Source of the DNA: Pseudarthrobacter sp. NIBRBAC000502770
GTDB lineage: Bacteria > Actinomycetota > Actinomycetes > Actinomycetales > Micrococcaceae
Reading direction: 5' to 3'
DNA: 64,000 nt
Assembly: GCF_006517815.1 (NCBI RefSeq)
Contig: NZ_CP041198.1
Coordinates: forward strand, 4,154,001-4,218,000
The notes under the pieces were generated by a model. It searched no databases. It was not told where the DNA came from and saw nothing but the letters and a program-made list of their open reading frames with translations. A program made the position numbers and the translations under genes. Positions 34,239 to 40,485 of the stretch are shown here, piece by piece (position 1 is the first letter of the stretch; the number at the start of each line of letters is the position of its first letter).

Positions 34239-34943
34239 CTACTTGGCGTCCAGGACCAGCTGCTTCAGGTCATCGAGCGTTTGCTGCATGTGCGCATCCA
34301 TGGCCTGGCGTGAGCGGGCGGCATCGCGGGACTCCAGCGCTTCGGCGATGTTCTGGTGGTGGCCGATTGCGTGCTCCTGGATTGCCGGAACGGCGGAGGT
34401 CTCGGCCCTGCGCTTTTCCAGGACGCGGTGCAGCGGCTCGAAGAGGACAGAGACGAACACGTTGCCGGAGGCGCGCAGGATGACGTCGTGGAAGGCGAGG
34501 TCGGCTTCCACGAAGGCTGCGACGTCGTTAATGCCATGGGCGGCCTTCATCGCCGCAATGTAGTTGAAGAGGGATGTGATGTCCTCCTCGACAATCCGTC
34601 CGGCCGCCAGTTCGCAGGCGCCCGTTTCGAGCATCCTGCGCAGCTCGATGAGCTGGATGGAGGCATCGGCGTCGTTCTTGCCCTCCGACGCGGCCCGGAG
34701 TACGGCTTCCAGCGAGGCCCAGCGGCTCAAGGGATTGACGAAGGTACCCCTGCCCCGCTCCACGCTGAGGATGCGCTGGGCCTGCAGTGTCTTCATGGCC
34801 TCGCGCACGGTCATGCGGCTGACTTCGTGGCGGGCGCTCAGCTCATGCTCGCCGGGAACGACGGAACCGGGCGGAAACTCGCCTTCGATGATGCGGTCCA
34901 GCAGCTCATCGGCCACCACGCCCACCAGCGACTTCCTTGCCAT
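34239..34943 (-). CDS. FadR-subfamily GntR regulator
   Basis: 234 residues from ATG 34943 (GGGGGG upstream). N-terminal winged HTH: LLDRIIEGEFPPGSVVPGEH, ELSARHEVSRMTVREAMKTL, ERGRGTFV; the C-terminal FCD domain has the metal-binding Asp/His pattern (ADLAFHDVILRASGN, HHQNIAEALESRD). Divergent from the acid-sugar operon and flanked by two TGTCNGACA sites, so it is the likely repressor, released by a sugar acid or its phosphate. Confidence 0.93.
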   Translation of the reverse strand: MARKSLVGVVADELLDRIIEGEFPPGSVVPGEHELSARHEVSRMTVREAMKTLQAQRILSVERGRGTFVNPLSRWASLEAVLRAASEGKNDADASIQLIELRRMLETGACELAAGRIVEEDITSLFNYIAAMKAAHGINDVAAFVEADLAFHDVILRASGNVFVSVLFEPLHRVLEKRRAETSAVPAIQEHAIGHHQNIAEALESRDAARSRQAMDAHMQQTLDDLKQLVLDAK

Positions 34944-34984
34944 GTTCCCCCCGATCACTCTGTCCGGCCGACTCCTGGCGGATA

Positions 34985-35059
34985 TGTCAGACAAGTGTAC
35001 TTGCGCGTCCGTATGCCGTGTGCCACACTAATTTTCGAATGCAAGATGTCTGACATCTT
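34985..35059. promoter_or_regulatory. Two FadR/GntR-type operators
   Basis: TGTCAGACA (34985-34993) and TGTCTGACA (35047-35055) have the same layout. The second lies in a larger perfect palindrome, AAGATGTC-T-GACATCTT (35043-35059). They are 62 bp apart centre to centre, one near each divergent start (gntR at 34943, kinase at 35116). Confidence 0.85.
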
Positions 35060-35115: not shown

Positions 35116-36612
35116 GTGACGCATGAAGCAGACGTTCTGGCCGCCTATCCGGCAGACCTCGAGATTCCCGCCGGGCTGGTTGCTGCCACGCTGGCCGCTT
35201 CCAACGCGGACGTTCCCCGCGTCCTGGTAGTGCTCGACGACGACCCCACAGGCACGCAGTCCGTGGCTGACCTGCCGGTACTCACCCGCTGGGACGTGGA
35301 AGATTTCACCTGGGCCTTCGGCCAGGGCAAGCCCGCCGTGTATGTCCTGACCAACACCCGCAGCCTCGACCCGGCCGAGGCTGCAGCCCGCAACGAGGAA
35401 GTGGTCCGCAACGCGCTTGAAGCGGCAGGTTCGGCGGAGTCCGCCGGTTCCGGTCTTCGGCTGGGATTCGTCAGCCGGAGCGATTCCACCCTCCGCGGCC
35501 ACTTCCCCCTGGAGCCGGACGTCATCGCAGCCACGGTTGCCGAAGTCAGCGGCGAAAAGACCGACGGCGTCGTCCTGGTCCCCGCCTTCCCCGACGCCGG
35601 CCGGCTCACCATTGGCGGCGTCCATTACATGCGCGGCACCGGTGACGCGGCGGGAACCCTGGTCCCCGTCTCCGAGACGGAGTTCGCCAAGGACGCCTCC
35701 TTCGGCTTCACTACGTCCGTCATGGCCGACTACATCGCAGAGAAGTCACAGGGCCGGTTCCCGGCAGACTCCGTGATCGTCCTGGACCTGAACATCATCC
35801 GTGCAGGTGCCTCCGCGCAGGACCCGGCCATCTCCGCCAAGGCGATCGCCGATGCCATCGAGCCGGCCACCGATTCCACCCCCATCGTCGCGGACATTGT
35901 CACCGAGAACGACTTCCGCGCGCTGGCCCTGGGCCTGGAAGAAGCCGAGCGCCGCGGGAAGAAGCTCCTGTACCGCGTTGGCCCGCCGTTCGTCCGCGGC
36001 CGCATCGGCCAGGAAGTACGCACCGCACTCACGGCCGGGGAGGCCTACGCCGGCAACACCCCGTCCGGGGCCGGCGGCCTGATCGTGGTGGGCTCGCACG
36101 TCGGCGTCACCACGCGCCAGCTCAACGTCCTCACCGCGGAGCACGGCTCCGCGCGGATCATTGAGATCGACGTCGAGAAGCTCCTCGGTGCCGAACCGGA
36201 CGCTAAAGCCCACCTGGACCAGACCGTGGACGCCGTCGTCGAGGCCCTCCACGCCGGGGACGTCATCGTCCACACCAGCCGCCTGCTGATCAAGACCGAC
36301 GACCCCGCCGAAAGCCTGCGGATCGCCCGTACGGTGTCCGCCGCCGTCGTCGCCGTGGTCAACCGGACCCTGAAGACCTTCCCGCCGCGGTTCGTCATCG
36401 CCAAGGGCGGCATCACGTCCTCGGACGTCGCAGCCCACGGACTGGAAATCCGCCACGCGATCGTGCGCGGACCCATGCTGCCCGGCATCGTCAGCCTCTG
36501 GGAGCCCGTGGACGGTCCCGCCAAGGGCATCCCGTACATCGTCTTCGCCGGCAACGTGGGCGACGACGATTCCCTGGCCCAGGTCACCCGCAAGCTCAGC
36601 AGTACTTTCTAG
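35116..36612 (+). CDS. otnK: Four-carbon acid-sugar kinase (DUF1537, OtnK-like)
   Basis: 498 residues. GTG start with GGAG six bases upstream. N-terminal domain contains VLVVLDDDPTGTQSVADLPV and the SRSDSTLRGHFPLE substrate loop; the C-terminal nucleotide domain contains GLIVVGSHVGVTTRQLN and KGGITSSDVAAHGL with the glycine loop of the DUF1537 family. Enzymes of this group phosphorylate 2- or 3-oxo-tetronates at C4 with ATP. First gene of an operon with an LtnD-type dehydrogenase, GntP permease and class II aldolase. The gene symbol is by family; substrate may differ because the usual OtnC/OtnI partners are absent. Confidence 0.87.
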   Translation: MTHEADVLAAYPADLEIPAGLVAATLAASNADVPRVLVVLDDDPTGTQSVADLPVLTRWDVEDFTWAFGQGKPAVYVLTNTRSLDPAEAAARNEEVVRNALEAAGSAESAGSGLRLGFVSRSDSTLRGHFPLEPDVIAATVAEVSGEKTDGVVLVPAFPDAGRLTIGGVHYMRGTGDAAGTLVPVSETEFAKDASFGFTTSVMADYIAEKSQGRFPADSVIVLDLNIIRAGASAQDPAISAKAIADAIEPATDSTPIVADIVTENDFRALALGLEEAERRGKKLLYRVGPPFVRGRIGQEVRTALTAGEAYAGNTPSGAGGLIVVGSHVGVTTRQLNVLTAEHGSARIIEIDVEKLLGAEPDAKAHLDQTVDAVVEALHAGDVIVHTSRLLIKTDDPAESLRIARTVSAAVVAVVNRTLKTFPPRFVIAKGGITSSDVAAHGLEIRHAIVRGPMLPGIVSLWEPVDGPAKGIPYIVFAGNVGDDDSLAQVTRKLSSTF

Positions 36613-36642
36613 AAGCCCCGCAAGAATTCAATGGAGAACACC

Positions 36643-37542
36643 ATGACCAGCAACTACACCGTCACCGTCCTAGGCCTCGGGGCCATGGGCCTGCCCATGG
36701 CCACCCGCCTGGCTTCCCAGCTGACCGTCCACGGCTTCGACATCGCCGAGCCCCGCCTGGAGCTGGCCCGGGAAGCCGGGATTGCCACCTTCACCACAGC
36801 CCGGGAAGCCGCCAAGGGTGCCGACGCCGTCCTCCTGGCAGTCCGCAACGGCGAGCAGCTCAACGACGTCCTCTTCGGCGAGAACGGCGTGGCCTCCGTG
36901 CTGGAGCCCGGCGCCGTGGTGATCCTTGGCAGCACGGTGGGCACCGACGCCATCCCCGCCACCGTGGCCAAGCTGGCCGAATACGGCGTGGACCTGGTGG
37001 ATGCCCCGCTCTCCGGCGGTCCCAAGCGCGCCGGTGAAGGCGACCTGCTGATCGTCGTGGGTGCTTCCCCCGAAGCCCGGGAAAAGGCCGCGCCCGCCCT
37101 GGACCTGCTCGCCTCCACGCTTACCGTGGTGGGCGACAACCCCGGCGACGGCCAAGCGCTGAAGACGGTCAACCAGCTCCTGTGCGGCGTCCACATTGCC
37201 GCCGCTGCCGAGGCCCTGGCCCTTGCCGACGCCCTGGGGCTGGACCAGGCCAAGACCCTCGCCGCCCTGGAAGCAGGCGCGGCAGGTTCCTTCATGCTCT
37301 CCAACCGCGGCCCGCGCATCCTCGAGGCCTACGACGAGGAAGGCGCCGAGGTGCTGTCCCGCCTGGACATCTTCGTCAAGGACATGGGCATCGTGGGCAA
37401 GGCCACCCGCGCCGCAGGCCTGGCAGCCCCCGTTGCCGCCGCCGCCGAACAGCTCTACCTGCTGGGCCAGGCCCAGGGCCTCGCCGCCGCCGATGACTCC
37501 GCCGTCATCAAGGTGGTCGCGCCGGCAAAGCGCACCAAGTAG
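36643..37542 (+). CDS. ltnD: NAD(P)-dependent 3-hydroxyisobutyrate/L-threonate dehydrogenase-like
   Basis: 299 residues; ATG 36643 is preceded by GGAG, and an ATG at 36631 is in frame but less suitable. Rossmann loop VLGLGAMGLPMATRL, substrate loop DAPLSGGPKRAGEGDLLIVVG and the catalytic Lys in KTVNQLLCGVHIAAAAEAL identify the beta-hydroxyacid dehydrogenase family, LtnD branch. In threonate pathways LtnD makes the 2-oxo-tetronate used by the kinase. A 184-bp gap with a long hairpin separates it from gntP. Confidence 0.85.
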   Translation: MTSNYTVTVLGLGAMGLPMATRLASQLTVHGFDIAEPRLELAREAGIATFTTAREAAKGADAVLLAVRNGEQLNDVLFGENGVASVLEPGAVVILGSTVGTDAIPATVAKLAEYGVDLVDAPLSGGPKRAGEGDLLIVVGASPEAREKAAPALDLLASTLTVVGDNPGDGQALKTVNQLLCGVHIAAAAEALALADALGLDQAKTLAALEAGAAGSFMLSNRGPRILEAYDEEGAEVLSRLDIFVKDMGIVGKATRAAGLAAPVAAAAEQLYLLGQAQGLAAADDSAVIKVVAPAKRTK

Positions 37543-37588
37543 CCCAGCGCACCTGATAAGCCACCCTCCTGCCCTTGCGGCAAAAGGT

Positions 37589-37622
37589 ACGACGACGGCG
37601 GTCCCCCCTCCGCCGTCGTCGT
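37589..37622 (+). terminator. Strong hairpin in the ltnD-gntP gap
   Basis: Perfect 13-base arms ACGACGACGGCGG (37589-37601) and CCGCCGTCGTCGT (37610-37622) enclose TCCCCCCT. No T-run follows. It may stop or slow part of the transcription, or protect the upstream mRNA from 3' decay, so kinase/dehydrogenase and permease/aldolase could be made in different amounts. Confidence 0.7.
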
Positions 37623-37726
37623 CCCTCCCAGCGCTGCCGGCGCAGTCCCGCAACGTTTATCCCCACCCCACCATTCCCTGATGCCGCCCTGCCCCGGGAC
37701 CGGCACGTCAAAGGAGACATCCCCCT

Positions 37727-39193
37727 GTGAACCACCTGATGAACCCGCTGCTGCAGCGGGCGGCCGATGCCCCGGCCATCAAGCCCGCCGTTGAGCTGGG
37801 CACCCCGGTACTGCTCACCATCGCAGCGGTGGGCATCGCCATCCTGCTGGTGATGATCATCCGCTTCAAGGTCCAGGCCTTCGTGGCCCTGCTGACGGTC
37901 AGCATTCTGGTGGCCGTCGCCGCCACCATTCCGCTGCAGGACATCTTCACTGTGGTCTCCAGCGGTGTGGGCAGCACCATGGGCAAGGTCGCCATCCTGA
38001 TTGCGCTCGGCGCAGTACTGGGCCGCATGATCGAGGTGTCCGGCGGTGTCCAGTCCCTCGCCGACCATTTCACCCGCAAGCTCGGGGCCCGCCGCGTGGC
38101 CGTGGCGCTGACCGCCGTCGGCTTCCTGGTGGCCATTCCCGTCTTCTTCGAGGTGGGCATCATCGTGCTGGTGCCTATCGTGTACGCCTTCGCCAAGATC
38201 GCCAAGGTGCACCCGGTCAAGTTTGGGCTGCCCATGGCCGGCATCATGCTCTCCATCCACGTGGCTGTCCCGCCGCACCCGGGAATCGTTGCCGGCGCGG
38301 GCGTCCTCGGCGCCGACATCGGACTGATCGCGCTGATCTCGCTCCTGATCTGCGTGCCGCTGGGCTTCCTGTCCTACTGGGTGGCTTCCATCATGAACCG
38401 CAAGGACTACGAACTGCTGCCCGCGGTGAAGACCCAGATTGAAGAGTTCGGTTCCAAGTCACTGGTCAAGGTAGGCCACGACGGTCCCGGCGCCGCCGCC
38501 GTCGCACCGCCGCGCCCCGGCCTGATTATCTTCCTGATCGCAGCGCCCATCGTGCAGATCCTGCTTGGCACCGTGGGCACGCTCGTCATCCCCAAGTCCG
38601 ATCCGCTGTACGGCCTCGCTTCCTTCATCGGCAACCCCTTCCTGGCCCTGCTGGTGGCCGTGGCGCTGTCCTTCTTCCTGCTGGCTGTCCGCCGCGGCTG
38701 GTCCTTCAAGGAAACCGGCGAAATCTTCGAGGGCTCCCTGCCCCCCATCGCCTCGATCCTGATGGTGGTGGCCGCCGGCGGCGTGTTCGGCAACGTCCTG
38801 CAGGTTTCCGGCATCGGCGGCGCCCTCTCCAAGACCCTGGACACCCTCGGTGTGCCGCTGCTGCTCCTTGGCTTCATCATCTCGCTGGCCCTTCGCGCTG
38901 CCCAGGGTTCAGCCACCGTGGCCATCGTGACCACCACCGGCCTGCTGTCCGCCGCGGTCAGCGGCGGGGGCTACAGCCCGGCCCAGATCGCCGTGATCGT
39001 CATCGCCATCGGTTTCGGTGCCCTTGGCCTGTCCCATGTGACGGACGCCGGCTTCTGGGTCGTAGTCCGGTACTACGGCCTGACGGTGTCCGACGGCCTC
39101 AAGACCTGGACCGTCCTGACCACCATCCTGGGCCTGGCCGGCTTCGCGCTGACCTTCGTGGCCTGGATCCTGGTGGGAGGCCTGGGCGCCTGA
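37727..39193 (+). CDS. GntP-family sugar-acid permease
   Basis: 488 residues with about 12-13 hydrophobic segments. GTG start with AAAGGAGA nine bases upstream. Landmarks are IIRFKVQAFVALLTVS, GSTMGKVAILIALGAVLGRM, GIPVFFEVGIIV-like IPVFFEVGIIVLVPIVYAF, HPGIVAGAGVLGAD and AAQGSATVAIVTTTGLL, all typical of GntP/GntT/YgbN symporters for gluconate and related acids. It imports the substrate of this operon. Overlaps the aldolase start by one base (TGATG). Confidence 0.93.
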   Translation: MNHLMNPLLQRAADAPAIKPAVELGTPVLLTIAAVGIAILLVMIIRFKVQAFVALLTVSILVAVAATIPLQDIFTVVSSGVGSTMGKVAILIALGAVLGRMIEVSGGVQSLADHFTRKLGARRVAVALTAVGFLVAIPVFFEVGIIVLVPIVYAFAKIAKVHPVKFGLPMAGIMLSIHVAVPPHPGIVAGAGVLGADIGLIALISLLICVPLGFLSYWVASIMNRKDYELLPAVKTQIEEFGSKSLVKVGHDGPGAAAVAPPRPGLIIFLIAAPIVQILLGTVGTLVIPKSDPLYGLASFIGNPFLALLVAVALSFFLLAVRRGWSFKETGEIFEGSLPPIASILMVVAAGGVFGNVLQVSGIGGALSKTLDTLGVPLLLLGFIISLALRAAQGSATVAIVTTTGLLSAAVSGGGYSPAQIAVIVIAIGFGALGLSHVTDAGFWVVVRYYGLTVSDGLKTWTVLTTILGLAGFALTFVAWILVGGLGA

Positions 39194-40044
39194 TGCATAC
39201 CCGACTGGACCACTTGGTCACCTCCGCCCTCCAGCAGGGCTCCGCCGTGCCGGCCTTCACCTGCTACGACTTCACCACCGCGCTGGCAGTGGTGGCCGCC
39301 GCCGAGGAATCCGGCCGGGGCGTGATCCTGCTGGTGGCCCCCAAGACTGCCGCCACCCCGAATGGACTCCGCCTTATTGCCGCCCTCCGGGGCCTGGCGG
39401 ATTCTGCCGCCGTGCCGGTCGCCTTGCAGCTGGACCACGCTTCAGACCTGAAAGTCATGGCCGAAGCCGTCGCGGCAGGGGCGGATTCCGTCCTCGCCGA
39501 CGGTTCGTCCCTCCCGTATGAGGACAACATTGCGCTGGTCCGGGCGGCCCGGGCCCTCCTGGGCGCAGACGTGGTGCTCGAGGCGGAGCTGGGCGGCCTG
39601 GCAGGGGACGAGGACCGTGCTTTCGAGCCCGGCCAGTCCGGCGTCGACGTGGCGGGCCTGACCGACTCCGCGCAGGTGGAGGACTTCGTGTCCCGCACCG
39701 GCGCGGAACTGCTGGCCGTCGCCGTGGGCAACGTCCATGGCAAGTACAAGGGCGAGCCCAGGCTGCGCTGGGACGTTCTGCAGGACATCGCGGCGCGGAT
39801 CCACATCCCGCTGGTGCTGCACGGTGCCTCCGGCATCCCGGCCGAAGAACTGGTCAAAGCCGCGGCCATGAACGTGGGCAAGGTCAACTTCAACACCGAA
39901 CTGCGGACCGGCGTGCTGGCCACCCTCCAGGACCAGCTTCCCGCCCACCGCGCCGACGGTGAAAACCTCCAGGGCCTGCTGGCGCTGTGGAACCAGTCGG
40001 CGAAGGGGTTTGCCGGCACCACGCTGGCCACGCTGGCGCGATAG
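39193..40044 (+). CDS. Class II ketose-bisphosphate-type aldolase
   Basis: 283 residues, FbaA/GatY/KbaY family. Zinc ligands are recognisable in VALQLDHASDL, LEAELGGLAGDED, AVGNVHGKYKGEP and LVLHGASGIPAE, and the phosphate/DHAP loop in KVNFNTELRTG. It should cleave a phosphorylated keto compound to dihydroxyacetone phosphate and an aldehyde. Translationally coupled with the permease. Standard tetronate operons use an OtnC-type decarboxylating aldolase instead; this gene suggests a different, perhaps longer, sugar-acid substrate. Confidence 0.88.
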   Translation: MHTRLDHLVTSALQQGSAVPAFTCYDFTTALAVVAAAEESGRGVILLVAPKTAATPNGLRLIAALRGLADSAAVPVALQLDHASDLKVMAEAVAAGADSVLADGSSLPYEDNIALVRAARALLGADVVLEAELGGLAGDEDRAFEPGQSGVDVAGLTDSAQVEDFVSRTGAELLAVAVGNVHGKYKGEPRLRWDVLQDIAARIHIPLVLHGASGIPAEELVKAAAMNVGKVNFNTELRTGVLATLQDQLPAHRADGENLQGLLALWNQSAKGFAGTTLATLAR

Positions 40045-40080
40045 GACAGTCGCGGTGAGGGGGGAGGCTAGGATCGAGCC

Positions 40081-40485
40081 ATGATCCTGGCCTCCCTTCT
40101 TTTTGCCTTCCTCGCCGGCGCGCTGCACGTCTTCATCTTCACCATGGAGTCCCTCACCTGGACCCGGCCCGCCACGTGGAAACGGTTCGGGGTCGCCTCC
40201 CAGCCGGACGCCGAAACCACCAAGTCCCTGGCGTACAACCAAGGCTTCTACAACCTGTTCCTGGCCATTGGGGCCTTGACCGGCGTGGGCCTTGTGGCTT
40301 TCGCCGGTGCCGGATCGGCGCAGGCCGTGGCAGGCTGGACCCTCATCTTCAGCTGCTGCGGCTCCATGCTGCTGGCGGCCGCCGTCCTGGCGCTCACCGG
40401 ACGCAAGTACCTCCGCGCGGCCGCAACCCAAGGCACCACGCCGCTGCTCGCCGTCGTACTCGGACTGCTGGCAGTGCTGCAATAG
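40081..40485 (+). CDS. DUF1304 membrane protein
   Basis: 134 residues with four hydrophobic segments. The N-terminus LASLLFAFLAGALHVFIFTM, ESLTWTRPATWKRFG and AYNQGFYNLFLAIGAL are diagnostic for DUF1304 (EpmC-like small membrane proteins). The function of the family is unknown. It lies 36 bp after the aldolase gene and may be transcribed with it, but it is a common stand-alone gene elsewhere. Confidence 0.88.
   Translation: MILASLLFAFLAGALHVFIFTMESLTWTRPATWKRFGVASQPDAETTKSLAYNQGFYNLFLAIGALTGVGLVAFAGAGSAQAVAGWTLIFSCCGSMLLAAAVLALTGRKYLRAAATQGTTPLLAVVLGLLAVLQ

Follow-up and report, generated by a model that had tools for sequence, protein, structure and literature searches.

Two bacterial routes for L-threonate are distinguished in a published study (PMC12540250): one has four steps, through LtnD, OtnI, OtnK, and OtnC (Zhang et al. 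2016), and the other is a bypass of three steps (Guo et al. 2024). In the three-step route of Arthrobacter sp. ZBG10, as described there, LtnD forms 2-oxo-L-threonate, and 2-OtnK and 2-OtnC then yield dihydroxyacetone phosphate (DHAP), so that OtnI is bypassed; the 2-OtnC has an F_bP_aldolase domain, 3-OtnC has an Aldolase_II domain, and the three-step route occurs in cyanobacteria too (PMC12540250). In the present study, we analyzed a gene cluster at 35116-40044 of a 64,000-nt stretch (the window; all positions of the cluster refer to it) of NZ_CP041198.1 from Pseudarthrobacter sp. NIBRBAC000502770, whose genome comprises 4.48 Mb in 2 contigs and whose closest relatives among the matches listed belong to Pseudarthrobacter and Arthrobacter. 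We consider it very probable that the cluster is a GntR-controlled operon for the degradation of a C4 sugar acid, most likely L-threonate, by a three-step route to DHAP.

Gene set and comparison with described routes

Four plus-strand genes fill the locus:

35116..36612, plus strand: DUF1537 acid-sugar kinase, proposed 2-oxo-tetronate 4-kinase (2-OtnK), 498 amino acids (PF07005, PF17042)
36631..37542, plus strand: 3-hydroxyisobutyrate/6PGDH-type dehydrogenase, proposed L-threonate dehydrogenase (LtnD), 303 amino acids (NF043037)
37727..39193, plus strand: GntP-family permease, proposed to take up threonate, 488 amino acids (NF007332)
39193..40044, plus strand: class II ketose-bisphosphate-aldolase-type enzyme, proposed 2-OtnC, 283 amino acids (PF01116)

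Only 18 bases separate the kinase from the dehydrogenase, and the stop codon of the permease gene shares one base with the aldolase start codon (TGATG). We scanned the 8 proteins encoded between 31551 and 40485 for NCBIfam and Pfam models. The kinase contains the SBD_N (PF07005, 156 bits) and NBD_C (PF17042, 119.9 bits) domains and is the only PF07005 match in the host genome. One of its relatives, P0120, has a UniRef name beginning with 'Type III effector'; its Pfam domains are those of the DUF1537 kinase, and the name looks like a legacy misannotation. The dehydrogenase matched NAD_binding_2 and NAD_binding_11, both over the cut-off, and ranked first among the 8 proteins of the host genome that matched the L-threonate dehydrogenase model. 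The permease scored 660 bits against NF007332 (cut-off 524).

Neither OtnI nor an Aldolase_II protein was found among the 8 scanned proteins. In the whole host genome, the OtnI model gave 3 matches, the best with 145.7 bits and none reaching the cut-off of 325; the two best scored higher as hydroxypyruvate isomerase (242.5 and 159.9 bits, also below the cut-off of 353), and the best adjoins a tartronate semialdehyde reductase gene. The genome encodes two Aldolase_II proteins, and the OtnC model gave a single match genome-wide, with 64.6 bits against a cut-off of 250; this protein is an L-ribulose-5-phosphate 4-epimerase adjoining an FGGY-family kinase. The OtnI isomerase and Aldolase_II OtnC required by the four-step tetronate pathway were thus not found over their cut-offs in the host genome.

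The features of the three-step route are present in the window: LtnD-type domains, a DUF1537 protein with SBD_N and NBD_C, an F_bP_aldolase rather than an Aldolase_II protein, and no OtnI. The window and ZBG10 thus share three enzyme families, the F_bP_aldolase type of 2-OtnC, the absence of OtnI, and membership in Micrococcaceae, a likeness set by domains and family from the description of ZBG10 and not by sequence comparison. We infer the equivalence of the enzymes from the family, the domain set, and the single DUF1537 gene. In the order survey described below, 5 other Micrococcaceae genomes with a kinase match had one match each, as does the host genome; there is thus no obvious second candidate for the counterpart of the ZBG10 kinase.

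In comparison with the E. coli ygbJKLMN proteins, used as the BLASTP set for the window proteins, the locus has relatives of the dehydrogenase YgbJ (34% identity) and of the tetronate cluster's GntP permease YgbN (51%) as well as a DUF1537-type kinase; it differs in having neither OtnI nor an Aldolase_II OtnC, and its kinase is longer than YgbK (498 versus 388 amino acids). The E. coli ydj cluster likewise combines a class II aldolase, YdjI (31% identity), with a kinase, YdjH, and is annotated for a sugar-acid (octuluronate) phosphate. It differs in this annotated substrate and in the H, not N, at position 234 of YdjI, and YdjH presumably belongs to a different kinase family from the window kinase. 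The Arabidopsis LTD (AT1G18270) has the same domains (LtnD twice, DUF1537 kinase, and F_bP_aldolase) and differs in being one fused plant protein; its aldolase domain is reported to be 33.2% identical to the Arthrobacter 2-OtnC (PMC12540250). Literature searches on the kinase with the aldolase, and on threonate with class II aldolase and Arthrobacter, found no papers.

In the proposed route, GntP would import the C4 acid, the LtnD-type dehydrogenase would oxidize C2 to give 2-oxo-tetronate, and the DUF1537 kinase would phosphorylate O4. The aldolase-type enzyme would then convert 2-oxo-tetronate 4-phosphate to DHAP and CO2, in place of OtnI and OtnC. The metal-bound substrate might lose the C3 proton and pass via an enediolate to the 3-oxo tautomer, which would decarboxylate as a beta-keto acid and leave the DHAP enediolate, the species that the aldolase fold normally makes. 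The exact acid, the uptake by GntP, the regulation by GntR, and this mechanism are inferred.

Conservation of the locus and features of the aldolase

We searched genome contigs with the window aldolase and studied the best 80 of 228 confirmed loci, these 80 being from Micrococcaceae. In them, the counterparts of the three proposed pathway enzymes are 72-99% identical to those of the window. In these aldolase-anchored loci, the kinase was present in 80 of 80, the dehydrogenase in 79, the GntR regulator in 78, and GntP in 69. The dehydrogenase was missing only in L002, where just 226 bases of contig remain upstream of the kinase. Because the kinase accompanies the aldolase in all 80 loci and the dehydrogenase in 79, the linkage of the three genes is beyond chance. 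The gene set is therefore a conserved operon across the Arthrobacter, Pseudarthrobacter, and Paenarthrobacter loci examined, not a single-strain feature. The whole operon, including GntR, is also carried on plasmid StoSoilB13-2 of Arthrobacter sp. StoSoilB13 (a 1-Mb record). GntP was of two kinds, at least 80% identical to that of the window in 47 loci and 55-58% in 22, with none between, and 11 loci gave no match; in some of these 11 (e.g., L045), the dehydrogenase is followed directly by the aldolase. The split and the missing matches suggest transporter exchange within a conserved operon.

Two wider surveys were made. In the order Micrococcales, the kinase was sought in 149 genomes, of which 38 had a match, and 37 loci were inspected (the window's own excluded); a dehydrogenase was nearby in 20 (one of them, L133, a weak match at 26%), and 4 had an aldolase nearby (G085, G005, and G024 of the same genus, and G134). 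In the phylum, 24 of 396 genomes had an aldolase match at a threshold of 1e-40. The surroundings were examined for 7 of the 22 outside the genus: G285 has an adjoining kinase and dehydrogenase, G275 has no kinase nearby, and 5 are nearer to E. coli KbaY/GatY.

The aldolase matched PF01116 (F_bP_aldolase) with 219.5 bits and fell below the cut-off for all 20 NCBIfam models listed. D81, H82, E132, E140, H182, H210, N232, and T235 are the same in all 82 aldolases aligned (window, 80 loci, and G134), and all of them except E140 are also common to GatY, KbaY, YdjI, and the host's own fructose-bisphosphate aldolase (FBA) in the alignment. We take these residues to serve the metal site and the enediolate chemistry, both of which should be intact, given the invariance.

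A second alignment and tree of 20 sequences contained 11 kinase-linked aldolases (7 Arthrobacter-group rows, G134, G285, Deinococcus, and Rhodococcus). Position 234 is N in all 11; it is A in GatY and KbaY, H in YdjI, and D in FBA and four actinobacterial KbaY-like rows. The arginine of the DPR motif, presumably the distal-phosphate Arg331 of E. coli FBA, is present in GatY, KbaY, FBA, and the KbaY-like rows and absent in 10 of 10 readable kinase-linked aldolases; for G285, a stop truncates the reading and leaves no residue at this position. In the larger set, this site (position 260) is Q in 81 of 82 and L in one, and Arg253, near the DPR region, is invariant. The C-terminal region around the DPR motif aligned differently from run to run; thus, the missing arginine is only a modest argument and does not prove a loss of phosphate binding. 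In the tree, a moderately supported branch (85/81) separates the kinase-linked aldolases and that of G275 from the rest, GatY/KbaY included; Deinococcus and Rhodococcus form long branches of unsure placement. The G275 aldolase has N234 but K at the position of the DPR arginine, and there is no kinase in its 14.7-kb context (L232), where this relative (38-39% identity) lies near an OtnC-like gene (36% to YgbL). Below the listed family cut-offs and without the DPR arginine at the aligned position, the window aldolase was not placed in the GatY, KbaY, or FBA families. N234, the missing arginine, and the branch speak against a bisphosphate ketose as the substrate.

Alternative substrates and roles

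Several results weigh against the proposed L-threonate operon. The dehydrogenase scored 244.5 bits against its best NCBIfam model, the L-threonate dehydrogenase NF043037, short of the cut-off of 350, and its identity to YgbJ is low. At 1e-3, neither BLASTP against YgbK nor a PDB search gave a match for the kinase. ZBG10 is not named among the best 80 of the 228 loci or among the proteins listed (120 per search). In addition, the kinase-dehydrogenase pair stands without a nearby aldolase in 16 of the 37 other Micrococcales loci (one weak), some of the surveyed loci being cut by contig ends; thus, an aldolase of this kind need not be the destination of the kinase product in every case. When the whole genomes of those 16 were searched with the window aldolase, no match exceeded about 40% identity, and G032 gave none at E 0.001. 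Aldolases at 31-40% identity could still serve in these genomes, since even the kinase-linked aldolases of Deinococcus and Rhodococcus share no more than 42% and 46% identity, respectively, with that of the window over the aligned parts.

The best surviving alternative keeps the same three-step chemistry with D-erythronate, or both C4 acids, as the natural substrate. The title of Guo et al. 2024 names routes for both L-threonate and D-erythronate, and the dehydrogenase is below the cut-off of the L-threonate model. That model is nevertheless its best, and the ZBG10 set is described as an L-threonate route (PMC12540250); we give this alternative a small chance.

The initial annotation had favored a different pathway, in which a C5-C6 aldonic acid is oxidized, phosphorylated, and cut by a true retro-aldol reaction to DHAP and glyoxylate or tartronate semialdehyde. 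The aldolase retains the class II catalytic set, the annotation of YdjI as a sugar-acid phosphate aldolase indicates that the family is capable of such a reaction, and a tartronate semialdehyde reductase and a hydroxypyruvate-isomerase-like protein are encoded elsewhere in the host genome. As YdjI also lacks the DPR arginine, the aldolase residues alone do not separate a C4 from a C5-C6 acid. The dehydrogenase, however, would have to act on a longer chain at the carbon adjacent to its far end, an oxidation that is not known for the LtnD family. The conversion of a C4 acid to DHAP is also simpler than that of a C5-C6 substrate with an aldehyde-acid product. The same domain set is reported to act on L-threonate (PMC12540250); with a published C4 route at hand, we rejected the C5-C6 reading as the leading one and regard it as quite unlikely.

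Other parts of the initial annotation fared differently. The domain models agree with its anatomy of a DUF1537 kinase, an LtnD-type dehydrogenase, GntP, and an aldolase in the last position, and the absence of OtnI and an Aldolase_II OtnC from the locus confirms its view that an aldolase-family enzyme stands in their place and that the locus departs from the four-step tetronate route. DHAP as the likely product is supported by the reported ZBG10 route (PMC12540250). The claim of an undescribed pathway did not hold, as the same study names this domain set from ZBG10; judged by domains and bacterial family, and not by direct sequence comparison, such a cluster has already been characterized with a known acid (PMC12540250).

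A tagatose/fructose bisphosphate aldolase merely located in an acid-sugar operon is hardly credible: its best NCBIfam matches are fructose/tagatose bisphosphate aldolases and some sources name its relatives GatY/KbaY, but it is below all 20 listed cut-offs, GatY/KbaY lie outside the kinase-linked group (at the moderate support given above), it lacks the DPR arginine, all 80 loci contain the kinase, and the host encodes a separate FBA over the cut-off, so that this candidate was rejected.

Regulatory region and related loci

The following features flank the four genes:

34239..34994, minus strand: FadR-type (FCD) GntR regulator, divergent (PF00392 69.5 bits, PF07729 90.3 bits)
34985..34993, no strand: candidate GntR operator 1, TGTCAGACA, a TGTCNGACA palindrome
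35043..35059, no strand: candidate GntR operator 2, perfect palindrome AAGATGTC-T-GACATCTT
40057..40101, plus strand: candidate operon terminator, 20-pair stem and T-rich tail, directly 3' of the aldolase gene

The two matches to TGTCNGACA in the window both lie between the regulator and the kinase; at least 2 matches were seen in 13 of 100 window shuffles. We aligned 15 intergenic regions, those of the window and of 14 loci picked by hand from the 80, with loci having a regulator-kinase gap of about 1 kb excluded. In all 15, TGTC and GACA of operator 1 and AGATGTC and GACATCTTACA of operator 2 are invariant. For the extended form GATGTCNGACATC, operator 2 is the sole match in the genome, and a reversed-pattern control likewise gave 1 match. 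These palindromes are candidate GntR operators to which the regulator may bind. Operator 1 overlaps the listed start of the regulator reading frame; thus, the ATG at 34943 (MARKS...) is more likely the start than the listed TTG.

The 2 terminator-like sites counted do not exceed the number in shuffles (mean 2.9), so the hairpin at 40057-40101 is a candidate only. The listed ATG of the following DUF1304 gene, at 40081, falls within this hairpin, and thus the true start may be further downstream. A DUF1304 match was found in 58 of the 80 Micrococcaceae loci.

The kinase-dehydrogenase loci without a nearby FBA-type aldolase, often with GntP, were L130, L131, L135-L137, L139, L140, L142, L143, L147, L149-L151, L163, L164, and, weakly, L133, and also L241 and L242. 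L130 (40-4367) and L147 (9025-12007) also encode a 3HCDH-type dehydrogenase and an AP_endonuc_2 TIM-barrel protein, and L130 additionally a triosephosphate-isomerase-family protein and an SDR protein. In Priestia and Ligilactobacillus, genes for GntR, the kinase, GntP, and a dehydrogenase with the annotation garR are plasmid-borne; the plasmid stretch shown contains no class II aldolase (the chromosomes were not searched), and in Ligilactobacillus a fructose-6-phosphate aldolase gene lies upstream, apparently in another cluster.

In other loci, the kinase-aldolase pair lies near a gene of the Asp/Glu racemase family and ABC sugar transporters. In plasmids of Deinococcus taeanensis and Rhodococcus antarcticus, the racemase, kinase, and aldolase genes are consecutive and accompanied by genes for ABC transporters and an oxidoreductase. 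Pseudarthrobacter phenanthrenivorans SWC37 (L002) has a second kinase-aldolase pair; it is followed, on the opposite strand, by a gene of the Asp/Glu racemase family, after which come ABC transporter genes. The coordinates of these sets are L002:227-10412, L238:3887-8607, and L239:4640-13307. The L002 racemase query gave no match in the other 79 Micrococcaceae loci or in the 37 order loci, and in a literature search on DUF1537, aldolase, and racemase only an E. coli genome study surfaced. The genes of these sets may encode a 2-oxo-tetronate racemase: D-erythronate and L-threonate oxidized at C2 give mirror-image 2-oxo-tetronates, and a racemase would therefore merge both routes.

We tentatively suggest, as a possibility that we still doubt, a shared dehydrogenase-kinase front end with interchangeable endings: an aldolase-type 2-OtnC, another finishing enzyme, or a racemase-linked set. 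If so, the other Micrococcales and the Bacilli plasmids would finish the pathway with another enzyme, and in the racemase-linked set the racemase-family enzyme could interconvert the 2-oxo-tetronate enantiomers and join D-erythronate and L-threonate catabolism. In the first and third endings, the aldolase would be a combined isomerase-decarboxylase on an aldolase fold. For the window itself, a plausible claim of a new pathway is settled in favor of what appears to be an instance of the published three-step route. Since vitamin C breakdown in plants yields L-threonate (PMC12540250), this acid is a likely carbon source in soil.

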